This document shows, in pieces, positions 15,556 to 45,950 of a stretch of 45,964 bases of DNA (position 1 is its first letter; each line of letters begins with the position of its first letter). The DNA is from Flavobacteriia bacterium (lineage in GTDB: Bacteria; Bacteroidota; Bacteroidia; Flavobacteriales_D; Crocinitomicaceae). Under the pieces are notes generated by a model. The model was not told the origin of the DNA. It worked only from the letters and a program-made list of their open reading frames with translations, and did not search any database. Made by a program: the position numbers and the translations under genes. The stretch lies in assembly GCA_016183815.1 (NCBI GenBank), contig JACPDW010000009.1, positions 1 to 45,964 on the forward strand, given 5' to 3'.

Positions 15556-16674
15556 ATGTCTTTTGAACTAAAAAATATTTATTCCATTTCTTTTTTTGAA
15601 CAGTATCTTAAAGACTTCAATAAGGTTTTACCTATAATTAGTAAAAAGGACTTTTTTTCGCTTATTTTTAATGATAAATGGGATTCCTTCGAACTTAAAC
15701 AACGAATGAGTCATATTGCTCAAACTTTGACCGTTTTATTGCCTGAAAAATATGATGATGCTATCGAAACAATTAAAGAAATTATAACAGTTCATCAGAA
15801 AAAGGGAAATAACGGTTTTAATTTTGAGTATATGTTTTACCCTGAATTTGTTATTTTAAATGGGCAAAATCATTTTAAAACTTCCATATCTGCTATGGAA
15901 AACATAACTCAATTTACCAGTTGTGAATTTGCTGTAAGGCATTTTTTTCAAAAAGATTTTAATCCAATGATGAAACAAATGCAAGAATGGACAAATCACA
16001 CTCATCCTTATGTTCGACGTTTGTCCTCCGAGGGAAGTAGAACACGTTTACCTTGGGCAATTAAAGTTCCAGATTTATTTAAACATCCTGATAAAATATT
16101 AACTCTATTAGAAAAATTACACAATGATGAAAATGAATGGGTGAGAAAAAGTGTTGCAAACAATCTAAATGATTTGTCAAAAGATTTTCCTGAACAAGTT
16201 TTACAATTTACAAAACAAAAATTAACTCATTCAAATAAAAACAGTGTACAACTTTTTAAACACGCCAATAGAACTTTATTGAAAAAGGGAAATGAAAAAG
16301 CTTTGTCGTTTTTCGGTTTTAATAAAAATACTCAAATAGAAGTAAAATCTTTCACGATTAACAATCCTAAAATGGTCGTTGTTGTTGGTCAAAATTTAGA
16401 GTTTGAATTAGAACTGAAAAATACTGAAAATTCTAATCAACAAATACGAATTGAATATCTAATCCATTTTTTGAGAAAAGATGGCACTCATTTTTGCAAG
16501 GTGTTTCAATGGAAACAATTTTTTTTAGGAGCAAATGAATCATGTCAATTAAAAAAATTCCATTCATTTAAAAAAATAAGCACAAGAAATTATGCTTCTG
16601 GAACACACTTTTTAAGTCTTCAAATAAATGGTAATGAGTGTTTTAAAAGTGATTTCTCTTTGTTTGATTCTTAA
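15556..16674 (+). CDS. AlkC-type DNA alkylation repair protein
   Basis: A 372-residue protein of the AlkC/AlkD HEAT-repeat DNA glycosylase superfamily, which removes alkylated purines without flipping the base. Diagnostic segments are WDSFELKQRMSHIAQTL (about 42-58), FEYMFYPEFVILNG, FAVRHFFQKD, MQEWTNHTHPYVRRLSSEG and SRTRLPWAIKVP, then LEKLHNDENEWVRKSVANNL. From about residue 265 a beta-rich Ig-like domain follows (VVVGQNLEFELELKN ... NYASGTHFLSLQING), as in AlkC rather than AlkD. The stop TAA shares its bases with the convergent stop of the next gene. The specific lesion repaired (3-methyl-cytosine or 3-methyl-adenine) cannot be read here. Confidence 0.85.
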   Translation: MSFELKNIYSISFFEQYLKDFNKVLPIISKKDFFSLIFNDKWDSFELKQRMSHIAQTLTVLLPEKYDDAIETIKEIITVHQKKGNNGFNFEYMFYPEFVILNGQNHFKTSISAMENITQFTSCEFAVRHFFQKDFNPMMKQMQEWTNHTHPYVRRLSSEGSRTRLPWAIKVPDLFKHPDKILTLLEKLHNDENEWVRKSVANNLNDLSKDFPEQVLQFTKQKLTHSNKNSVQLFKHANRTLLKKGNEKALSFFGFNKNTQIEVKSFTINNPKMVVVVGQNLEFELELKNTENSNQQIRIEYLIHFLRKDGTHFCKVFQWKQFFLGANESCQLKKFHSFKKISTRNYASGTHFLSLQINGNECFKSDFSLFDS

Positions 16675-17699
16675 TTTATCGTTTTTAAAGCCAATTCATC
16701 ATCAATAGCTTTTTTCTTTCTTGTGATTTCAAAATTTCCCATTTTAAAGTAAAATCCACCTTGTTTTTGACTTGTAGCTTTGGCTGTTCTTAATTCTAAA
16801 TTTGTGTTCATCTTGTCGTTCAAAGTGTTGGTAATGAATTTTATTGGTTCTTTCATTTCCTTTATAGATAAATAAGAAGAATTTGCTTTTTCTTCATTTT
16901 TATTCTCAAAATCATTGTTCATAGTTTGAGAAACAAATAATTCTTTTTCTTGTAAATCTTCGAGTAAAAAAGTGGTCAATTGTTTGTTTTTTAACATAAA
17001 ATAATTGTTTACTTTCATGCTACTGTCTTTACTGAAAAATGGGTTGTTATTACTTATTTGGATAGATTTGTATTTATTACTTTTATTTACAATATTGTTT
17101 TTTGTCAATTCTTTTTCAAAAGGCATTTCGATATTTTTATTTTTCTTATTGAATTTTTTATCAATATTTTGCGAGATTGAATAATTTTTATTTTGCTCAT
17201 ATTGAACAGGATAAAACAAAAACACAAGTAAAATAATTGAAGCAATAGCACTTATTACATAATAAAATGGTCTGATAGTACTTTTTTTAAGGTTAGATGA
17301 AAAGGGATATTGTATATTCTCTTTTGGTAAAAAGGTTTTTTCATATAAAAGAAATGTTTTTTTCCAACTTGGATTTTGTTGAAGAAAATCTAATAATTTT
17401 TGTTTTTTTTCTGGGATTAAAGTGTTTTCATAAAAAGCAATAATAAAATTTTCAATATTTGTGGGTTGAATCTCTTCATTTTCATCAAATATTTTTAATT
17501 TATTTTTAAAAGAATCATTTAAAATTGGGTTAGTAGAAGATTTATAAGTGTCAAAGAAAATATTCTCGTCTTCCAAAATCAAGTCAGGATGGTGATTTAA
17601 AAAAATGAGCAGCTCGTTTTTATCTTTTTCACTAATAGTTCCTTCTAAAAGATCTAAATAAAAACTTTCGTAATTTTCTATGTTAATTGTGTTACTCAT
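16671..17699 (-). CDS. Putative anti-sigma factor, single-pass membrane protein
   Basis: A 342-residue protein with one membrane helix at about 146-164 (YYVISAIASIILLVFLFYP). The N-terminal cytoplasmic part opens with YESFYLDLLEGTISEKDK, where the anti-sigma zinc or helical domain would be expected, and has two similar segments ending NHHPDLILEDE and QQNPSWKKTF. No zinc-binding HxxxCxxC is visible. The periplasmic part is Asn/Lys-rich and ends with FYFKMGNFEITRKKKA. Its start overlaps the ECF sigma stop (ATGA), the usual arrangement for a sigma factor and its membrane-bound regulator. The role rests mainly on position and topology. It has no FecR-like domain. Confidence 0.6.
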   Translation of the reverse strand: MSNTINIENYESFYLDLLEGTISEKDKNELLIFLNHHPDLILEDENIFFDTYKSSTNPILNDSFKNKLKIFDENEEIQPTNIENFIIAFYENTLIPEKKQKLLDFLQQNPSWKKTFLLYEKTFLPKENIQYPFSSNLKKSTIRPFYYVISAIASIILLVFLFYPVQYEQNKNYSISQNIDKKFNKKNKNIEMPFEKELTKNNIVNKSNKYKSIQISNNNPFFSKDSSMKVNNYFMLKNKQLTTFLLEDLQEKELFVSQTMNNDFENKNEEKANSSYLSIKEMKEPIKFITNTLNDKMNTNLELRTAKATSQKQGGFYFKMGNFEITRKKKAIDDELALKTIN

Positions 17700-18181
17700 G
17701 CTACTAAATCCTTGTCTTTAATGTAATTTTTTAATTGTTGTCGTGCTCTAAAAATATATACTTTTACTTGAGAAGGATTTAATGAACAAATTTCACCAAT
17801 TTCATCATAAGAATACCCTTCGTAATCTCTTAACAAAACAAGAGTTTTTTGTATTTCTGGCAAGGTGTCTAATGCTTTTTCTAAAACTTCTTTAATGTCC
17901 ATTTCTGCTGGTTTGTAGAAGAATTGATGTATTGGTGCTTTTTCAATATCTCCAGATTTTTTTTCATTTTTTATCCAATTTATAATAGTATGATATGCAG
18001 TTGTAAACAAATAGGATTTTACTTTTTGAGCATCAACCTCTTGATGTTTGTCCCATACTTTCATAAAAGTTTCTTGAACAATATCTTGAGCATTCATTGC
18101 GTTTTTCAAATGTTTTAAAGCGAAACGATAGATAGAATCGGCATAACAATCAACTGCTTCATTATATTCTTTTACGTTCAC
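17696..18181 (-). CDS. ECF-type RNA polymerase sigma factor
   Basis: A 161-residue group IV sigma factor. Region 2 (about 8-75) includes YRFALKHLKNAMNAQDIVQE and TFMKVWDKHQEVDAQKVKSY, the core-binding and -10 recognition part. Region 4 (about 105-155) includes LPEIQKTLVLLRDYEGYSY and DEIGEICSLNPSQVKVYIF, a helix-turn-helix for the -35 element. No region 3 is present, as in all ECF factors. It is co-transcribed with the membrane protein that follows by a four-base overlap, implying control by an envelope signal. A TGTAAC/GGTCTT pair upstream suggests autoregulation. Confidence 0.93.
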   Translation of the reverse strand: MNVKEYNEAVDCYADSIYRFALKHLKNAMNAQDIVQETFMKVWDKHQEVDAQKVKSYLFTTAYHTIINWIKNEKKSGDIEKAPIHQFFYKPAEMDIKEVLEKALDTLPEIQKTLVLLRDYEGYSYDEIGEICSLNPSQVKVYIFRARQQLKNYIKDKDLVA

Positions 18182-33024: not shown

Positions 33025-35163
33025 TTAGATTTTAACTCCAATCAAACAGATATCATCTACTTGTTCAAGATCTCCTTTCCATGAAACTAATTTTTTTTCT
33101 ATTTCATTTAGTTGATCTTCCATACATTTTTCACTAATAGAAAGCAATAATTCTTTGATTTGAGAAGACCTAAATTTTTTCTGTTTTGGTCCTCCAAATT
33201 GGTCTTGAAAGCCGTCAGTAAAAATGTAAATACAATCATGTTCTTGCAATTGAATAACATGATTAGTAAAGGGTTTAACGCCCTCTTGTTTACCAATAGG
33301 CTGCTTGTCAGGCTTATAATCAATGATTTGTTTATCTCTAAGTACCCACAGAGGGTTATTAGCTCCTGCCCAAAAAAGCAGTTTTGATTTTATATTCAAA
33401 GAGCAAAGTGAAATATCCATACCGTCATTTACATTTTCATCTGACTTCTCAAATTCAGCTACAACAAGTTCACGAGTTTTATTTAAGATTTCGTTAGGAA
33501 TTGCTAAGCCAAACTCACGAACAGCTCGATTTAAACCATTATTACACACCACAGAAACCATAGCACCTGGCACACCATGTCCTGTGCAATCTGCCGCAGC
33601 AAATAAAACAGAATCTCCAATTAACTCTAACCAATAAAAATCTCCAGCAACAATGTCTTTAGGTTTGTATAATATAAATGATTGAGGTAAAATACTTTGG
33701 ACCACCTTGTTAGAAGGCAATATGGCGGACTGAATTCTTTTTGCGTAAGTTATTGAGTCTGTTATTTCTTTATTTTTTTCTTCAACAATTTCTTTTTGAG
33801 ATAGTATAATTTTTTGCTGTATATTAGATTTTTTATATTTTGAATAAAACAATAACAGTAAAATTAATGAGATAAAAATACCTCCATATAGGGTGAATCT
33901 TTGAGAATTGATACTTGAAATCCTGTCATTCATAGCATTTATCTTTATTTTTTGATTAACTTTATTAATACTATCTTTAAAATTAATTTTACCTATTTCA
34001 TATTCAAATTCTTTTTGATAAATTTCCTCTTTCTTTTGTATAGATTTAAGAGAATCTTCAATTTTTCTTAATTTTTCTAAGTAAATTAAACTTAAATAGT
34101 GGTTGTTTTTTTTTCTATATATTAAATACAAAAGATTATTTGCTTGAAGTTGATCGTCAAGAGAAATAACATCTTCTGCTGTTTTTAATCCGAGAATTGC
34201 ATATTTAATTGCATTTGAATAGTCATTCATTTGTAAATAAAGTGACCCTAGATTGGTATAACTAATGGAAAGACCTAAGATGTTTTCCGTTTTTTTTCTA
34301 ATTTCAATACTTTTTTTATAAAAATCTAATGCTTTATTATTTTCGTTATTTCTTTTATAAATAGTTCCTAAATTATTATATACCATTCCTATCCCATCTT
34401 TATCATTTATTTCATTTCTTATTTTTAAACATTTTTCGAAAAAGTGTATAGCTTCATCTAATTTATTTTGATTAACATAAAGTGCACCTAAGTTGTTGTA
34501 TGTAAGTGCAATACTTTTTTTATTTCCAGTTTTTAATTTTACTTTTAAAGCTTTCTTATAGTAGTATTCAGCTTTTGGATAATCATTTAATCTTGAGAAT
34601 GCTAAACCAATGCTATTAAATGCAAAGCCAAGTTTTTCTTCATCTTTCGCGTTTTCATATATGCTGATTGCATTGATAAAATATGAAATTGATTTATTTG
34701 AATTACCAATGTCGTTATAGACATTTCCTAAGTTTGTAAAGGCATCGGCTTGACCACTATTATAATTTATCTCCTTATATATAATTAATGCTTTATTTAA
34801 TAATTCGATTGATTTAAGGTATTTTCCTTTAATTTTATTATTATTTCCTAAAATATTATATGACTTAGCTATTGCTTTTTTGAACCATTCTTTTTCTTTA
34901 GAATTTACTTTTTTTTTATTTAAATTGTTTTTTGCAATTTCAATAATTTTTTCATTTAATTCATTGTCTAGTTTTAAGTCTTCTAAGTATATTAAATCGT
35001 CCCATTTAGATAATGCATTAATTTTTATGGAATCATGCTTGTTTGAAGCAATAATTTTTTTTAATGAATCAATATTTTTATTCTTTTCATTGGAGGATTG
35101 TGAATAAAAAAAAAAGAAGTTAAACAACAATATCAAAATAAAATAATCTTTTTTAAATTTCAT
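33025..35163 (-). CDS. TPR sensor / PP2C (SpoIIE-type) phosphatase, copy 1
   Basis: A 712-residue protein. A signal-like N-terminus (FILILLFNFFFFYSQ) is followed by about seven TPR units from residue 75 to 340 (SGQADAFTNLGNVYNDIGNS, KSIALTYNNLGALYVNQNK). A coiled coil is followed by one membrane helix at about 421-440 (GGIFISLILLLLFY), a second coiled coil (EIVEEKNKEITDSITYAKRI), and a cytoplasmic PP2C domain to the end. Phosphatase metal sites are visible: AGDFYW, AAADCTGHGVPGAMVS, DGMDISL, FTDGFQDQFGG and QVDDICLIG. Proteins of this layout relay periplasmic signals to dephosphorylation of STAS-type regulators, but no such partner is encoded nearby. Last of three tandem paralogues; 21 bases separate it from copy 2. 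Confidence 0.9.
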   Translation of the reverse strand: MKFKKDYFILILLFNFFFFYSQSSNEKNKNIDSLKKIIASNKHDSIKINALSKWDDLIYLEDLKLDNELNEKIIEIAKNNLNKKKVNSKEKEWFKKAIAKSYNILGNNNKIKGKYLKSIELLNKALIIYKEINYNSGQADAFTNLGNVYNDIGNSNKSISYFINAISIYENAKDEEKLGFAFNSIGLAFSRLNDYPKAEYYYKKALKVKLKTGNKKSIALTYNNLGALYVNQNKLDEAIHFFEKCLKIRNEINDKDGIGMVYNNLGTIYKRNNENNKALDFYKKSIEIRKKTENILGLSISYTNLGSLYLQMNDYSNAIKYAILGLKTAEDVISLDDQLQANNLLYLIYRKKNNHYLSLIYLEKLRKIEDSLKSIQKKEEIYQKEFEYEIGKINFKDSINKVNQKIKINAMNDRISSINSQRFTLYGGIFISLILLLLFYSKYKKSNIQQKIILSQKEIVEEKNKEITDSITYAKRIQSAILPSNKVVQSILPQSFILYKPKDIVAGDFYWLELIGDSVLFAAADCTGHGVPGAMVSVVCNNGLNRAVREFGLAIPNEILNKTRELVVAEFEKSDENVNDGMDISLCSLNIKSKLLFWAGANNPLWVLRDKQIIDYKPDKQPIGKQEGVKPFTNHVIQLQEHDCIYIFTDGFQDQFGGPKQKKFRSSQIKELLLSISEKCMEDQLNEIEKKLVSWKGDLEQVDDICLIGVKI

Positions 35164-35184
35164 TTTATAACTAATTATTTCCAG

Positions 35185-37161
35185 CTAACATCTAATTCCA
35201 ATAATACAGACATCGTCAACTTGTTCTAGTTTATCTTTCCAAGAATCAAATGTAGTTAAAATTTTATCTTTTTGTTCATTTAAGGGTAAATGATTAATTG
35301 AAATAAATAACTCTTTCATTTTAGATGTTCTAAATTTTTTCTCTTTTGGACCACCAAATTGATCTTGAAAGCCATCTGTAAAGAAATATAGACAATCATT
35401 TTTTTGCAATTGAATAAGATGATTTGTAAATGGCTTTACCTCATCGTGTTTTCCAATGGGTTGTTTGTCTGGTTTAAATTCGATTATTTCATCATTTCTT
35501 ATAATCCAAAGAGGATTATTAGCTCCAGACCATTGAAGCTGATATGTTTTTCGGTTTAACGAACATAAAGAAATGTCCATTCCATCTTTTACTTCTTCTT
35601 CTGATTTTTTAAATTCCTCTAAAACAAGTTCTCTTGTTTTATCCAATATTTCATTGGGTTTTGTTAAACCAAATTCTCTCACAGCTCTATTTAACCCATT
35701 ATTACACACAACCGAAACCATTGCACCAGGCACACCATGTCCTGTACAATCAGCAGCTGCTACTAATACTGTGTCCTCAATCATTTCCAGCCAATAAAAA
35801 TCTCCTGCAACTATATCCTTTGGTTTATAAAACACAAACGACTCTTTAAAATAGGTTTGAAATAAATGATTTGGTGGCAAAATGGCCTTTTGAATTCGTT
35901 TAGCATAAATAATAGAATCCAAAATTTCTTTTTGTTTTTTTTCAACTAATAATTTTTGATTTTCAATGATGTTTTTTTTAATATTTACTTCTTTAAAAGA
36001 TTTTTTTAAAACAAAAAAGAAAATTGAAATTAACAATAAAACTAATAAAATTAGAAGAATAAAAATTTGTTGTCTTAAACTTTTTTCATTTGAAATCTCT
36101 TTTTCTTTTTTTAACTTTATATCGTTTAATTTTTTGTATTGTTTTAATTCTACTTCTATTTGTTTTTGTATTAATATTTTTTCGTTATTATTTTTAAGTA
36201 TCATATCTTTTACTAAATTATATTCTTCAAGATAATGTAAAGATTTATTAACATTTTTAGAAGATTTATACAATTTATATAAATAAAAAGTAGAATTTTC
36301 ATGAATTTTTAATAACTTAAATGTTTTTGATATTTCTAAAGATTTAAGTAAAGATTTTAAAGCCAAATCATTCATTTTTAAATAAAATTGACATTGTCCT
36401 TTTCTCTGAAGTGAATATGCTATTCCAGTATTATAATCAATAGATTTATAAACATTTGAAGAGGAGTCAAGAAATTGAATTGCTTTTAAGTAATTTTTTT
36501 GTTTTCTATAAATTTCACCGAGATTACAAATAGAATTCGCAAGATTAAGTTTATCCTCTTTTTGTAAAGAAATATTAATACTTTTTTGAAAAAAATACAT
36601 TGCTTTATCGTAAATATCCAATTCTGAATAACATAAGCCAATATTATTATATGTAGGTCCGTGATTTATAGTTTTATTTTTAAATTTTACACTTTTTAAA
36701 AAGTAGGTTAATGCTTTTTGACTAGAATTTATATCTCTATAAACCAATCCCATATTATTAAGTATATTACTCTCAAGAGTAAATAATTTGTCTTTTGTAG
36801 CAATCGAATATGCTTTTGAAAAACAACTCAATGCTTTAATCATATCATTTTTTTCAAATGCAACTAAACCAATGTTATTTAATGAAAGAGCATAATGATA
36901 TCTATAAAACAATTTCGATATCTTACTATTTCTTTTTACATTGATATTTTTTAAACACAAATTAATAATAAGGTTGTTTAATTTTAAATCCTTTTCTGAA
37001 TCAGAAGTATAAATAAGTTCGTCCCAATTAATTAATGAAAGTACCTTTAAAGAATCATTTTTGGAAGTATAATATTGATTTTTATAGTATTCTTCATTTT
37101 TATTTTGACTAAAGGAAATAAAAATAATTAAAACAAAAATAAAAGCAATTAGTTTATACAC
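35185..37161 (-). CDS. TPR sensor / PP2C (SpoIIE-type) phosphatase, copy 2
   Basis: A 658-residue paralogue. The signal-like start is IAFIFVLIIFISFSQ. TPR units cover about 85-310 (YHYALSLNNIGLVAFEKNDM, SNILNNMGLVYRDINSSQKA). The membrane helix is at about 362-385 (FILLILLVLLLISIFFFVL), followed by KKEVNIKK-type coiled coil and ILDSIIYAKRIQKAILPP. The phosphatase keeps the same sites as copies 1 and 3 (AGDFYW, AAADCTGHGVPGAMVS, DGMDISL, FTDGFQDQFGG, QVDDVCIIG). The TPR half has diverged far more than the phosphatase half. No promoter of TAnnTTTG type was found in the 96 bases before it. Confidence 0.9.
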   Translation of the reverse strand: MYKLIAFIFVLIIFISFSQNKNEEYYKNQYYTSKNDSLKVLSLINWDELIYTSDSEKDLKLNNLIINLCLKNINVKRNSKISKLFYRYHYALSLNNIGLVAFEKNDMIKALSCFSKAYSIATKDKLFTLESNILNNMGLVYRDINSSQKALTYFLKSVKFKNKTINHGPTYNNIGLCYSELDIYDKAMYFFQKSINISLQKEDKLNLANSICNLGEIYRKQKNYLKAIQFLDSSSNVYKSIDYNTGIAYSLQRKGQCQFYLKMNDLALKSLLKSLEISKTFKLLKIHENSTFYLYKLYKSSKNVNKSLHYLEEYNLVKDMILKNNNEKILIQKQIEVELKQYKKLNDIKLKKEKEISNEKSLRQQIFILLILLVLLLISIFFFVLKKSFKEVNIKKNIIENQKLLVEKKQKEILDSIIYAKRIQKAILPPNHLFQTYFKESFVFYKPKDIVAGDFYWLEMIEDTVLVAAADCTGHGVPGAMVSVVCNNGLNRAVREFGLTKPNEILDKTRELVLEEFKKSEEEVKDGMDISLCSLNRKTYQLQWSGANNPLWIIRNDEIIEFKPDKQPIGKHDEVKPFTNHLIQLQKNDCLYFFTDGFQDQFGGPKEKKFRTSKMKELFISINHLPLNEQKDKILTTFDSWKDKLEQVDDVCIIGIRC

Positions 37162-37257
37162 GATTTTAAAATTAATACAAATTTTGAAAAATAATTAATG
37201 AAATTACTTAAATAGTTTTATAGAATTTATAAATCAATATTTTTAACAACATAAACA

Positions 37258-39285
37258 TCAAATTTTTACTCCAATAATGCACACATCATCAATCTGTTCT
37301 TGTTTGCCTTTCCATAAATTGAAAGTATGCTGAATTTTATCTTTTTGATTGATTAAAAGCAAGTGATTTATTGATTTAAATAACTCTTTCATCTGTGATA
37401 CCCTGAATTTTTTCTTTTTTGGCCCTCCAAATTGATCTTGAAGCCCATCAGTAAAAAGGTATATTATATCTTTTTTTTCTAAATTGATTACATGAGTTGT
37501 AAATGGTTGAATTTCATAATGTTTTCCTATTGGCTGTTTATCGGGCTTGGTTTCGAGTAACTCAACCTGACCTTGAGAATTATTGCGTAAAATCCAAAGT
37601 GGATTATTTGCTCCAGCCCAGCTTAATTTTTTTGCTTTTAAATCGTAAGCACACAATGAAATATCCATCCCATCTTTTACCTCCTCGTCTGATTTTTCAA
37701 ATTCTTGAATAACAAGCTCACGAGTTTTATCTAATATTTTTCCAGGTTCCTTAATATTAAACTCTCTAACAGAACGATTTAAAGCGTTATGACAAACTAC
37801 AGAAACCATCGCTCCTGGTACACCGTGACCAGTACAGTCTGCTGCTGCAAATAAAACAGTATCACCCACCACCTCCAACCAATAAAAATCACCAGCTACG
37901 ATGTCTTTAGGTTTATAAAAAATAAATGATTCATTAAAAGTTGATTTAAAAATATTGTCTGAAGGTAAAATCGCTGTCTGAATTCTTTTAGCATAAGTTA
38001 TAGAATCAGTAATTTCTTTGTTTTTTTCTTCTAAATTTAAATGTGCTTGCTCGACTTGTTTTTTTTGCTTTTCAATAAGTTTTTTTTGTTTAAAAATTAT
38101 TCTATACCTATTCCATAAAAAGACAGAAAAAATTATTACCAATACTAAACCAATCAAGAAAAAGTATTTTTGCTTCCTATTACTCTTAATTTCAGCATTT
38201 TTAAGTGCAGTTTTTTGAATATACTGCAAACTATCAGTAGTTGTTTTTTTATCGTATTCAAATTTAAAATGTTCTTGAATTACTTTTTTCTTTTTTTCAT
38301 CATCTTGAACTTTTTCAATATAAAAGTTATGTTCTGATTGGTAAAAAAATGCTTTTTCCCATTGTTTTTTTATTTTATAACATTCACTTAAATTATTTGA
38401 GATCTCAGATAAAAGCTTTGGATTATCAATTTTTTTTGCATACGGATATAAATCAATTAAATTTTTTAAAGCTTCATCTGTTTTATTTAATTTCATTAAT
38501 GCTTGGCAAAAATTATTTACTGTTCTTGCAAAAGTCAATGAATTACCTACTTTTCTAAAAATATTTATCGACTCTTCTAAGTGCTTTATTGCATTTTCAT
38601 AATCAGTTTTTTTTATTAAAACCAATCCAATATTATTTAATGTAATAGCTAAAGGAAAACTGTCTTTTTTTATTCTTAAAAAATGTAAATTTTCATTAAA
38701 AAGTTGTAATGATTTATCCAATTGATTTTGATCTCTATAAATGGTTGCAAGATTATTGTTTACTTGAATCACCCCTATAATGTTTACTAGTTTTTTTCTA
38801 ATGATTTGAGATTTAGAATAATATTTAATTGCATCATCATAAAAATCCAAATCTTGATAAACATTACCTAAATAATTATATACGTTTGCAATTCCATCCA
38901 AGTCCTTAATTTTTTCAAAAAGGGTCAAAGCTTTTAGATGATAATTTATACCTTCAATATAATTTCCTTTAGTTTTATAGTAAAAAGCCAAATTATTGTA
39001 TGCAACACAAATTTGTTGAGTAAAATAATATTTTTGTAATTCAGTGCTTTTTTCTGATTTAAGTTTTTTTTGACAAATTTTTATTGCATTTTCTGTATAA
39101 AACTTAATATCTTCGTAGTTATTAGTGTTCGATAATTTAATGTATTTATCAACTAAAGCACTGTCATTCTTTATTTTACTTAAAATATTTTTTATTGAAT
39201 CATTTGATGGATTTGAAAAAATAGTTAATGAAATCAATAAGTATAATAAGACAATTGAACTTAATATTTTATTAACTTTTTTCAT
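37258..39285 (-). CDS. TPR sensor / PP2C (SpoIIE-type) phosphatase, copy 3
   Basis: A 675-residue paralogue and first of the tandem set in transcription order. The N-terminus is hydrophobic (ILSSIVLLYLLISLTIF). TPR units run from about 75 to 320 (NLAFYYKTKGNYIEGINYHL, GIANVYNYLGNVYQDLDFYD). The membrane helix is at about 371-393 (YFFLIGLVLVIIFSVFLW). A coiled coil (KQKKLIEKQKKQVEQAHLNL) joins EITDSITYAKRIQTAILPS and the PP2C domain with AGDFYW, AAADCTGHGVPGAMVS, DGMDISL, FTDGLQDQFGG and QIDDVCIIG. It carries a small insertion, NNSQGQVELLE, after the NNPLWILR strand that the other two lack. Confidence 0.9.
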   Translation of the reverse strand: MKKVNKILSSIVLLYLLISLTIFSNPSNDSIKNILSKIKNDSALVDKYIKLSNTNNYEDIKFYTENAIKICQKKLKSEKSTELQKYYFTQQICVAYNNLAFYYKTKGNYIEGINYHLKALTLFEKIKDLDGIANVYNYLGNVYQDLDFYDDAIKYYSKSQIIRKKLVNIIGVIQVNNNLATIYRDQNQLDKSLQLFNENLHFLRIKKDSFPLAITLNNIGLVLIKKTDYENAIKHLEESINIFRKVGNSLTFARTVNNFCQALMKLNKTDEALKNLIDLYPYAKKIDNPKLLSEISNNLSECYKIKKQWEKAFFYQSEHNFYIEKVQDDEKKKKVIQEHFKFEYDKKTTTDSLQYIQKTALKNAEIKSNRKQKYFFLIGLVLVIIFSVFLWNRYRIIFKQKKLIEKQKKQVEQAHLNLEEKNKEITDSITYAKRIQTAILPSDNIFKSTFNESFIFYKPKDIVAGDFYWLEVVGDTVLFAAADCTGHGVPGAMVSVVCHNALNRSVREFNIKEPGKILDKTRELVIQEFEKSDEEVKDGMDISLCAYDLKAKKLSWAGANNPLWILRNNSQGQVELLETKPDKQPIGKHYEIQPFTTHVINLEKKDIIYLFTDGLQDQFGGPKKKKFRVSQMKELFKSINHLLLINQKDKIQHTFNLWKGKQEQIDDVCIIGVKI

Positions 39286-45455: not shown

Positions 45456-45950
45456 TTATTCTTTAGTTTTAAACCCAATTTTCACCCTTGTATTATGTTG
45501 TTTATTAATATTGTCCTTTTTTATAAGATAATTTATCGCCTCAAAAACATCAACAAATTGTTTGTCATATTTCCTTTCAAGTTCTTTTAGTTTAGTTAAT
45601 GCAAAATTTCTTATTAGTAAAAAGGTTCGCATGATGGAAATGTTAACTTGGATAGCTTTATCTGAATTAAGAACACCACTTAACATAGCAACTCCTTGTT
45701 CTGTGAAAGCATAAGGCAAATATCTAATTCCGCCTCTTTTGTTTGAGGTGACAATTTTGCACCTCAAACTTTGTCATTCATCAGCAGTTAATTCAAACAT
45801 AAAATCAGTTGGAAATCTTTTTAAGTTTGCTTTCACTGACCTTTTTAAATATTTAGTTTCTACTTCATAAAGTACTGCGAGATCAAAATCAAGGATTACT
45901 TTATGACCCCTTATGTCATAAATTTTGTGTTGAATAAGTTGTATTTCCAT
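45456..45950 (-). pseudogene. ORF6N-domain protein gene broken by an in-frame TGA
   Basis: The minus strand from ATG 45950 encodes [20 protein letters not shown], then [20 protein letters not shown] and [14 protein letters not shown], then TGA (45774-45776), then in the same frame QSLRCKIVTSNKRGGIRYLP, YAFTEQGVAMLSGVLNS and a C-terminal coiled coil ending IGFKTKE. This is the full ORF6N (KilA-N-associated) DNA-binding domain of phage and mobile-element proteins. The TGA stands where the family usually has Trp, so one TGG-to-TGA change explains it. TGA is a normal stop elsewhere here (ends of the genes at 11468 and 17696), so recoding is unlikely. A re-start at Met near 45767 would give only the C-terminal part, which lacks the N-terminal domain. 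Confidence 0.85.

Follow-up and report, generated by a model that had tools for sequence, protein, structure and literature searches.

What does a bacterium gain from three adjacent genes that share one output domain while their sensor domains differ strongly, and how did such an array arise? The question is raised by a 45,964-nucleotide stretch (the window) of contig JACPDW010000009.1 from a Flavobacteriia bacterium of the Crocinitomicaceae (assembly GCA_016183815.1), which carries three tandem genes encoding proteins with tetratricopeptide repeats (TPR), a transmembrane (TM) helix and a PP2C phosphatase domain. An earlier note, made from the DNA letters, read them as one output channel with several inputs, produced by local duplication. 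Drawing on domains, the unequal divergence of the two halves, conflicting half-trees, the genome inventory and co-occurrence across the class, we consider it fairly probable that the three genes belong to a fan-in partner-switching network whose sensors and outputs are shuffled against each other by recombination close to the linker helix. Throughout, c1-c3 denote the array copies, C a contig of the window's genome (G000; C7 is the window's contig), L a fetched locus and G a genome.

A conserved output behind diverged sensors

The three genes proposed earlier are borne out as same-strand open reading frames (Table 1). In c1, c2 and c3 alike, multiple TPRs and a SpoIIE domain (PF07228, 65-78 bits against a curated cut-off of 25) score above the Pfam thresholds; each protein also has one strong TM segment by hydropathy, and an N-terminal signal segment exceeds a simple hydropathy cut-off in c2 and c3 but not in c1. 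This is most naturally read as a TPR half in the periplasm joined to a phosphatase in the cytoplasm, an arrangement like that of the histidine kinase FimS. The AGDFYW, AAADCTGHGVPGAMVS and DGMDISL sites are identical across the three copies, in agreement with the earlier note, and the SpoIIE residues GDFYW, DCTGHG, DG and DD are invariant in all 18 proteins chosen for one alignment; the acidic residues of GD, DCTGHG, DG and DD are presumably the metal site of SpoIIE/PP2C phosphatases. The insertion after NNPLWILR, thought to mark copy 3 alone, does so within the array but not genome-wide, being present also in C26, C22_a, C22_b and C32_b.

When the halves are aligned separately, the contrast between conserved output and diverged sensor stands: TPR identity among the three pairs is 28, 23 and 23%, against 71, 67 and 72% for the PP2C half in one alignment, and pairwise realignment gives 23-28% against 66-71%. 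Nonsynonymous divergence (dN) is likewise unequal, at 0.82-0.86 in the TPR half and 0.18-0.25 in the PP2C half, while at about 70% identity the phosphatase domains are less alike than the "nearly identical" of the earlier description. Because synonymous divergence (dS) reaches about 1 or saturation in both halves, one PP2C pair being saturated, the dN/dS ratios can serve as a rough guide only. Across the PP2C half the copies share identical DNA runs of at most 14-17 bases, so there is no recent link among them, and PP2C identity within the array (67-72%) is no higher than that between the array and C32_a or C32_b elsewhere in the genome (68-72%). In array pairs, identity steps up sharply about 60 residues before GDFYW, at the resolution of a 40-residue window. 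Selection alone could give such a contrast, given the low dN of the PP2C half and the near-saturated dS of both halves; duplication in place, followed by strong purifying selection on the PP2C half and fast TPR change without recombination, would then suffice, an account that the trees below make quite improbable.

Two histories in one gene

We built separate trees for the two halves from 32 of the 88 TPR-bearing proteins, chosen after BLAST comparison, with a robustness run for the TPR half that used another alignment and dropped five long or odd rows; the proteins L168 and L170 of the congener G004, which the motif pattern did not pick up, are in no tree. In the PP2C tree, c1-c3 form one clade with moderate support (81/90), as do the five copies of the G004 array (L156; 100/97); in another PP2C tree, of 66 rows, c2 and c3 were sisters (93) and c1 joined them at a fork without printed support. 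The TPR tree places the same proteins differently: c2 is sister to a congener's L159 (100/97), c1 branches next to c2 + L159 (99/95) and c3 groups with L041 of another genome (95/87). A TPR tree of the ten paralogues of the window's genome had support too weak for use. A single clade of the TPR halves of c1-c3 is rejected by the approximately unbiased test (p-AU 0.0053; 0.0012 in the robustness run).

The G004 array shows the conflict decisively. One TPR clade of its five copies is rejected (p-AU 4e-66), as is one of copies 1-3 with the very long-branched first copy left out (p-AU 1e-83); its second copy, L156_1, is sister to C26 of the window's genome, a different species, in the TPR tree (100/99), yet its PP2C half lies within the array clade, and its fifth copy, L156_4, is sister to L166 (100/99). 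In G004 the halves must therefore have been parted by recombination, and plain duplication is rejected there. The pairs c2 + L159, c3 + L041, L156_1 + C26 and L156_4 + L166 were named from the TPR data and then tested on the PP2C half, which rejects L156_1 + C26 (p-AU 0.028), L156_4 + L166 (5e-5) and c3 + L041 (0.0005). In the window's array the clear half-tree conflict is that of c3, where recombination likely separated sensor and output. Local duplication thus holds at most for the PP2C halves; the sensor halves, with c2 beside L159 and c3 beside L041, go part of the way towards the separate joining of copies that the earlier note had set against it.

Several results pull the other way. The c2 + c3 pair has a support of 52 in a ten-row tree, and the PP2C clade of the window's array only 81/90. 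The PP2C data reject neither c2 + L159 (p-AU 0.296) nor c1 + c2 + L159 (0.25), so that c1 and c2 could share the history of L159 in both halves. A TPR clade of C32_a + C32_b is not rejected (p-AU 0.334), and of the four L045 array copies included in the tree, three still group together by their TPR halves (100/99), as plain duplication would have it. Gene conversion in the window's genome gave a smallest p of 0.025 among 36 pairs, none significant after multiple testing, in a test that took nine of the ten paralogues and only columns present in all, and is thus blind to gene ends.

Possible marks of recombination in the output halves

Conflicting half-trees could also arise if array genes captured no sensors: the TPR halves would then retain their original orthology, and gene conversion would have made the PP2C halves alike, as in concerted evolution. 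Conversion-like tracts are found between copies 2 and 3 of L156 and between copies 0 and 1 of L045, matched by 0 of 1000 shuffles on all variable sites, but with p-values of only 0.011 and 0.037, respectively, on third positions. Shared 3' tips point the same way: C32_a and C32_b have an 84-base identical run, and a repeated piece comprising the last PP2C codons and the next ~40 bases lies at the gene ends of C22_b, C32_a, C32_b and C29_b and, in part, at a 468-amino-acid PP2C gene of C27 that has no TPR. As PP2C dS within the G004 and L045 arrays is at least 0.74 and often saturated, there has been no recent homogenisation of the whole domain; nor did any pair in the window's genome remain significant in the test above, outside which the gene ends lie. 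We regard such homogenisation, itself a variant of the recombination reading, as a real possibility short of an even chance; either it or the capture of sensors by array genes may have set the halves apart.

Extra, non-coding copies of the repeated piece lie behind C29_b and C22_b; 399 kb of sampled genome contained no copy, and neither did the window. Ectopic recombination or a mobile repeat may account for the piece. C22_b (L174:8093-10207) ends early at a repeat copy: its SpoIIE match reaches only position 137 of 192, the last part of the domain is missing, and it is probably an inactive phosphatase. Each end of the 20-kb contig C32 (L175, L018) carries a TPR-PP2C gene that faces outward and terminates in one and the same repeated sequence, which is probably where the assembly breaks.

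One kinase and two STAS proteins as candidate partners

No PF01740 (STAS) or PF13581 match at E<=1 occurs on contig C7, in a search that did not take in the Ser/Thr protein kinase, histidine kinase and histidine phosphotransfer (HPt) families, and the earlier statement that no STAS or anti-sigma-type kinase is encoded nearby therefore stands for these two families. A search of the rest of the genome for STAS and GHKL proteins replaces the unknown partner by specific candidates. One protein exceeds the cut-off for HATPase_c_2 (RsbW-type, PF13581; 83 bits against 27.4), its gene adjoining ybeY; two proteins exceed that for STAS, both single-domain and both with an SSG motif, one adjoining purA and fur and the other rnz (neighbours named by eye). 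The motif is invariant in nine of nine aligned STAS proteins, and its Ser we take to be the phosphosite, as in RsbV-type proteins.

The same set recurs in relatives. The kinase was found once in 27 of 30 genomes, G000 included (G024, G028 and G029 are without it), and SpoIIE matches range from 1 to 57 in the 27 genomes that hold both. Of 22 genomes, 18 yielded two STAS proteins, 2 yielded one and 2 none; these last, G024 and G029, are also without SpoIIE. The kinase gene adjoins ybeY in 26 of 27 loci (profile A1 was built from 23 of these 27), and the neighbours of 30 STAS loci are rnz in 18, purA/fur in 10 and neither in 2 (profile A3 came from nine loci; a loosely similar motif pattern drew 11 of the 30). 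We read these conserved neighbourhoods as a fixed core beside a variable receptor set.

That set is large. SpoIIE occurs at 16 places in the window's genome; ten are TPR-PP2C proteins by Pfam (three on C7, C22_a, C22_b, C26, C29, C41 and two on C32), and the other six carry PAS, PAS + GAF or no recognised sensor. Among 29 relatives, 27 have SpoIIE, with 1 to 57 matches per genome, the 57 of G008 corresponding to about 54 genes, as three genes are split into two matches. Four congeners have 1, 14, 15 and 12 matches. The survey of copy number suggested earlier finds that tandem arrays recur, with five genes in a row in the congener G004, four in G008, and at least two same-strand neighbours in 6 of 40 GTDB loci. 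The congener G001 has a single match against 12-16 in other members of the genus, although it is 93% complete, which we read as a large recent loss or expansion. In 26 of the 29 relatives the best SpoIIE match falls within an open frame of 406-434 amino acids (E below 1e-34), whose counterpart in the window's genome (409 amino acids, C27:35146-35718) shows no further Pfam domain; this may be the phosphatase with which the switch began. No orthologous array was seen at the rimO locus: rimO has a match in 29 relatives, and in none of the 20 loci fetched (L109-L128, four of them ended by contig ends) does a PP2C gene adjoin it, so that synteny there is unusable.

A model consistent with this inventory is as follows. 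Each of c1-c3 would be a transmembrane receptor whose predicted periplasmic TPR solenoid senses a ligand or protein, and whose one TM helix would run into a long cytoplasmic linker helix that controls the SpoIIE-type PP2C, probably through dimerisation. The PP2C would most likely dephosphorylate one or both single-domain STAS proteins, which the single RsbW-type kinase would phosphorylate; a freed STAS protein could then bind the kinase and make it release whatever it holds. Many receptors would thereby feed one switch, and would diversify by recombination parting sensor from output near the linker helix rather than by plain tandem duplication and divergence.

Co-occurrence of phosphatase and kinase across the class

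We surveyed one sample of 197 genomes of the class, our own included, for which at least 90% completeness was asked, scoring up to 15 SpoIIE candidates per genome and using presence only. SpoIIE is found in 156 of the 197 genomes, the RsbW family in 147 and the STAS family in 158. All 147 genomes with RsbW are also SpoIIE-positive, RsbW without SpoIIE occurs in 0, and 41 have neither (Fisher p 6e-34, uncorrected for the kinship of the genomes, so that independence is overstated). All three families are present in 146 genomes and none in 37; partial sets are SpoIIE + STAS in 8, STAS alone in 4, SpoIIE + RsbW without STAS in 1 and SpoIIE alone in 1 (G090). RsbW is single in 142 of the 147 genomes, with two matches in G041, G064, G089 and G151 and three in G200. 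Although the genomes share ancestry, the families f16 and f49 contain both states. One output channel with several inputs is thus supported at the level of gene content, by 16 SpoIIE places beside one RsbW and two STAS proteins and by the class-wide dependence of RsbW on SpoIIE.

The network part of this reading is weakened on several counts. Nine SpoIIE-positive genomes of the class have no RsbW match, and G028 has 40 SpoIIE matches without a kinase match; because such SpoIIE-only genomes exist, a strict dependence of every phosphatase on an RsbW kinase is weakened, and some phosphatases may serve other targets. The co-occurrence is also partly phylogenetic. The STAS and RsbW genes lie on contigs other than the array's, with no genetic linkage; because the genes are unlinked, the pairing of phosphatase and kinase rests on inventory and co-occurrence. 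Linkage of phosphatases to STAS or kinase genes is common, not universal. It is accordingly conceivable, if unlikely, that the three phosphatases act on separate dedicated targets in insulated pathways: no target gene is linked to them, two STAS proteins already allow two channels, and some genomes have SpoIIE but no RsbW match. Only two single-domain STAS proteins for 16 phosphatase places, and the conserved PP2C halves, which would suit a shared substrate, argue for the common switch.

Implications

We tentatively suggest, as a possibility that falls short of an even chance, that Bacteroidia hold an expandable receptor system, in which one fixed RsbW and two STAS proteins are joined by a receptor set that recombination at the linker helix keeps renewing, new periplasmic TPR sensors being spliced onto a shared PP2C in tandem nurseries. 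If true, nature would here be swapping sensors at a boundary that can be measured. Exchange of sensors between outputs is what the linker mechanism put forward for PPM phosphatases predicts, and arrays with conflicting sensor and output trees are a natural data set for testing it; the candidate boundary lies about 60 residues ahead of GDFYW. With one co-occurring kinase and the STAS proteins, a receptor class of Bacteroidia that had been an orphan becomes a pathway open to test. The parts are of known kinds; as far as the searched literature shows, what is new is the fan-in inventory and the conflict between sensor and output, and no paper on this receptor class was found among openly licensed PMC papers. 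The network and its evolutionary pattern are of more interest than the three genes alone.

Features of the array and its surroundings

Because the gaps between c3 and c2 (96 bp) and between c2 and c1 (21 bp) are so short and the strand is the same, the genes are probably co-transcribed in the order c3, c2, c1. A scan for the Bacteroidetes-type promoter pattern matched 7 times where 7.1 would be expected, and never upstream of the array; sigma-70-like sites (51 against 53 in shuffles) showed no excess, and terminator-like sites (2 against 1.8 expected) no signal above chance. About 15 kb from the array lies a sigma-70-family gene (17696-18181), of extracytoplasmic function (ECF) type by size and domains, which overlaps by a few bases the gene of a 342-amino-acid protein without a Pfam match (together 16671-18181); the latter may be a candidate anti-sigma factor. 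A short ORF6N-domain fragment lies close to the window's end (45456-45767).

Table 1 Features of the TPR-TM-PP2C array (window positions) and of the related repeat on other contigs (positions within fetched loci)
Feature	Position	Strand	Remarks
c1 TPR-TM-PP2C protein	33025..35163	-	712 aa
c1 predicted periplasmic TPR half	33898..35094	-	Pfam and hydropathy; topology predicted
c1 transmembrane helix, aa 423-441	33841..33897	-	hydropathy
c1 PP2C half (SpoIIE, PF07228)	33028..33681	-	Pfam and alignment
c2 TPR-TM-PP2C protein	35185..37161	-	658 aa, GTG start, 21 bp before c1
c2 predicted periplasmic TPR half	36067..37104	-	sister of congener's L159 in TPR trees
c2 transmembrane helix, aa 366-384	36010..36066	-	hydropathy
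c2 PP2C half	35188..35841	-	Pfam and alignment
c3 TPR-TM-PP2C protein	37258..39285	-	675 aa; first in likely operon, 96 bp before c2
c3 signal-peptide-like hydrophobic segment, aa 7-25	39211..39267	-	hydropathy
c3 predicted periplasmic TPR half	38167..39210	-	Pfam and AlphaFold model
c3 transmembrane helix, aa 374-392, opening predicted helix 375-439	38110..38166	-	hydropathy and AlphaFold model
c3 linker helices, aa 393-449, conserved EIxxSIxYAxRIQxAILP	37939..38109	-	alignment and AlphaFold model
c3 PP2C half, aa 453-675	37261..37929	-	Pfam, AlphaFold model, structure match
c3 loop insertion after NNPLWILR, place approximate	37567..37581	-	alignment
PP2C-end repeat, window's own genome, other contigs	L174:7591-8098, L021:2708-3030, L175:19-91, L018:3625-3697, L011:1300-1493		

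Comparison with known systems

The AlphaFold model of c3 (predicted local distance difference test, pLDDT, 85; predicted template modelling score, pTM, 0.50) has a helical TPR solenoid and a PP2C fold, with a helix (residues 375-439) that crosses the membrane segment and continues through most of the linker. SiaA of Pseudomonas aeruginosa, from the SiaABCD system, is a membrane PP2C, and its PP2C domain (6k4e) is the best match of the c3 PP2C fold in Foldseek (TMt 0.91; RssB, RsbX and SpoIIE further down) and also the best sequence match of the PP2C half. Unlike SiaA, c1-c3 score 160-173 bits with the equivalog NF038263 against a cut-off of 700, only linker and PP2C being aligned. Rap-like TPR structures are among the Foldseek matches of the c3 model.

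FimS of Porphyromonas gingivalis is a histidine kinase in which TM segments flank a cluster of TPRs in the periplasm and the catalytic output lies in the cytoplasm (PMC11053733). The array proteins share with it the predicted periplasmic TPR cluster and the cytoplasmic catalytic output, but theirs is a PP2C, not a histidine kinase, and NF053520 gives 74 (c1), 20 (c2) and 63 (c3) bits against a cut-off of 600. In Campylobacterota, a PP2C with a periplasmic sensor acting through STAS has been proposed (PMC9239204).

An S-helix between sensors and PP2C outputs has been described (PMC1592074), PPM linkers have been proposed as a modularly exchangeable toolkit, and the linker of RsbU is reported as a coiled coil that dimerises and activates the phosphatase (both PMC12143880); by analogy, our best guess is that an RsbU-like linker mechanism would apply to c1-c3. 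Like RsbU and RsbP of Bacillus subtilis, the array proteins combine an N-terminal sensor, a helical linker and a SpoIIE-type PP2C, in a genome with STAS and an RsbW-type kinase. They differ from RsbU and RsbP in their TPR sensor and TM helix, in the unlinked position of their candidate partners, and in scale, with up to 57 SpoIIE matches (about 54 genes) beside a single kinase in the relative G008.

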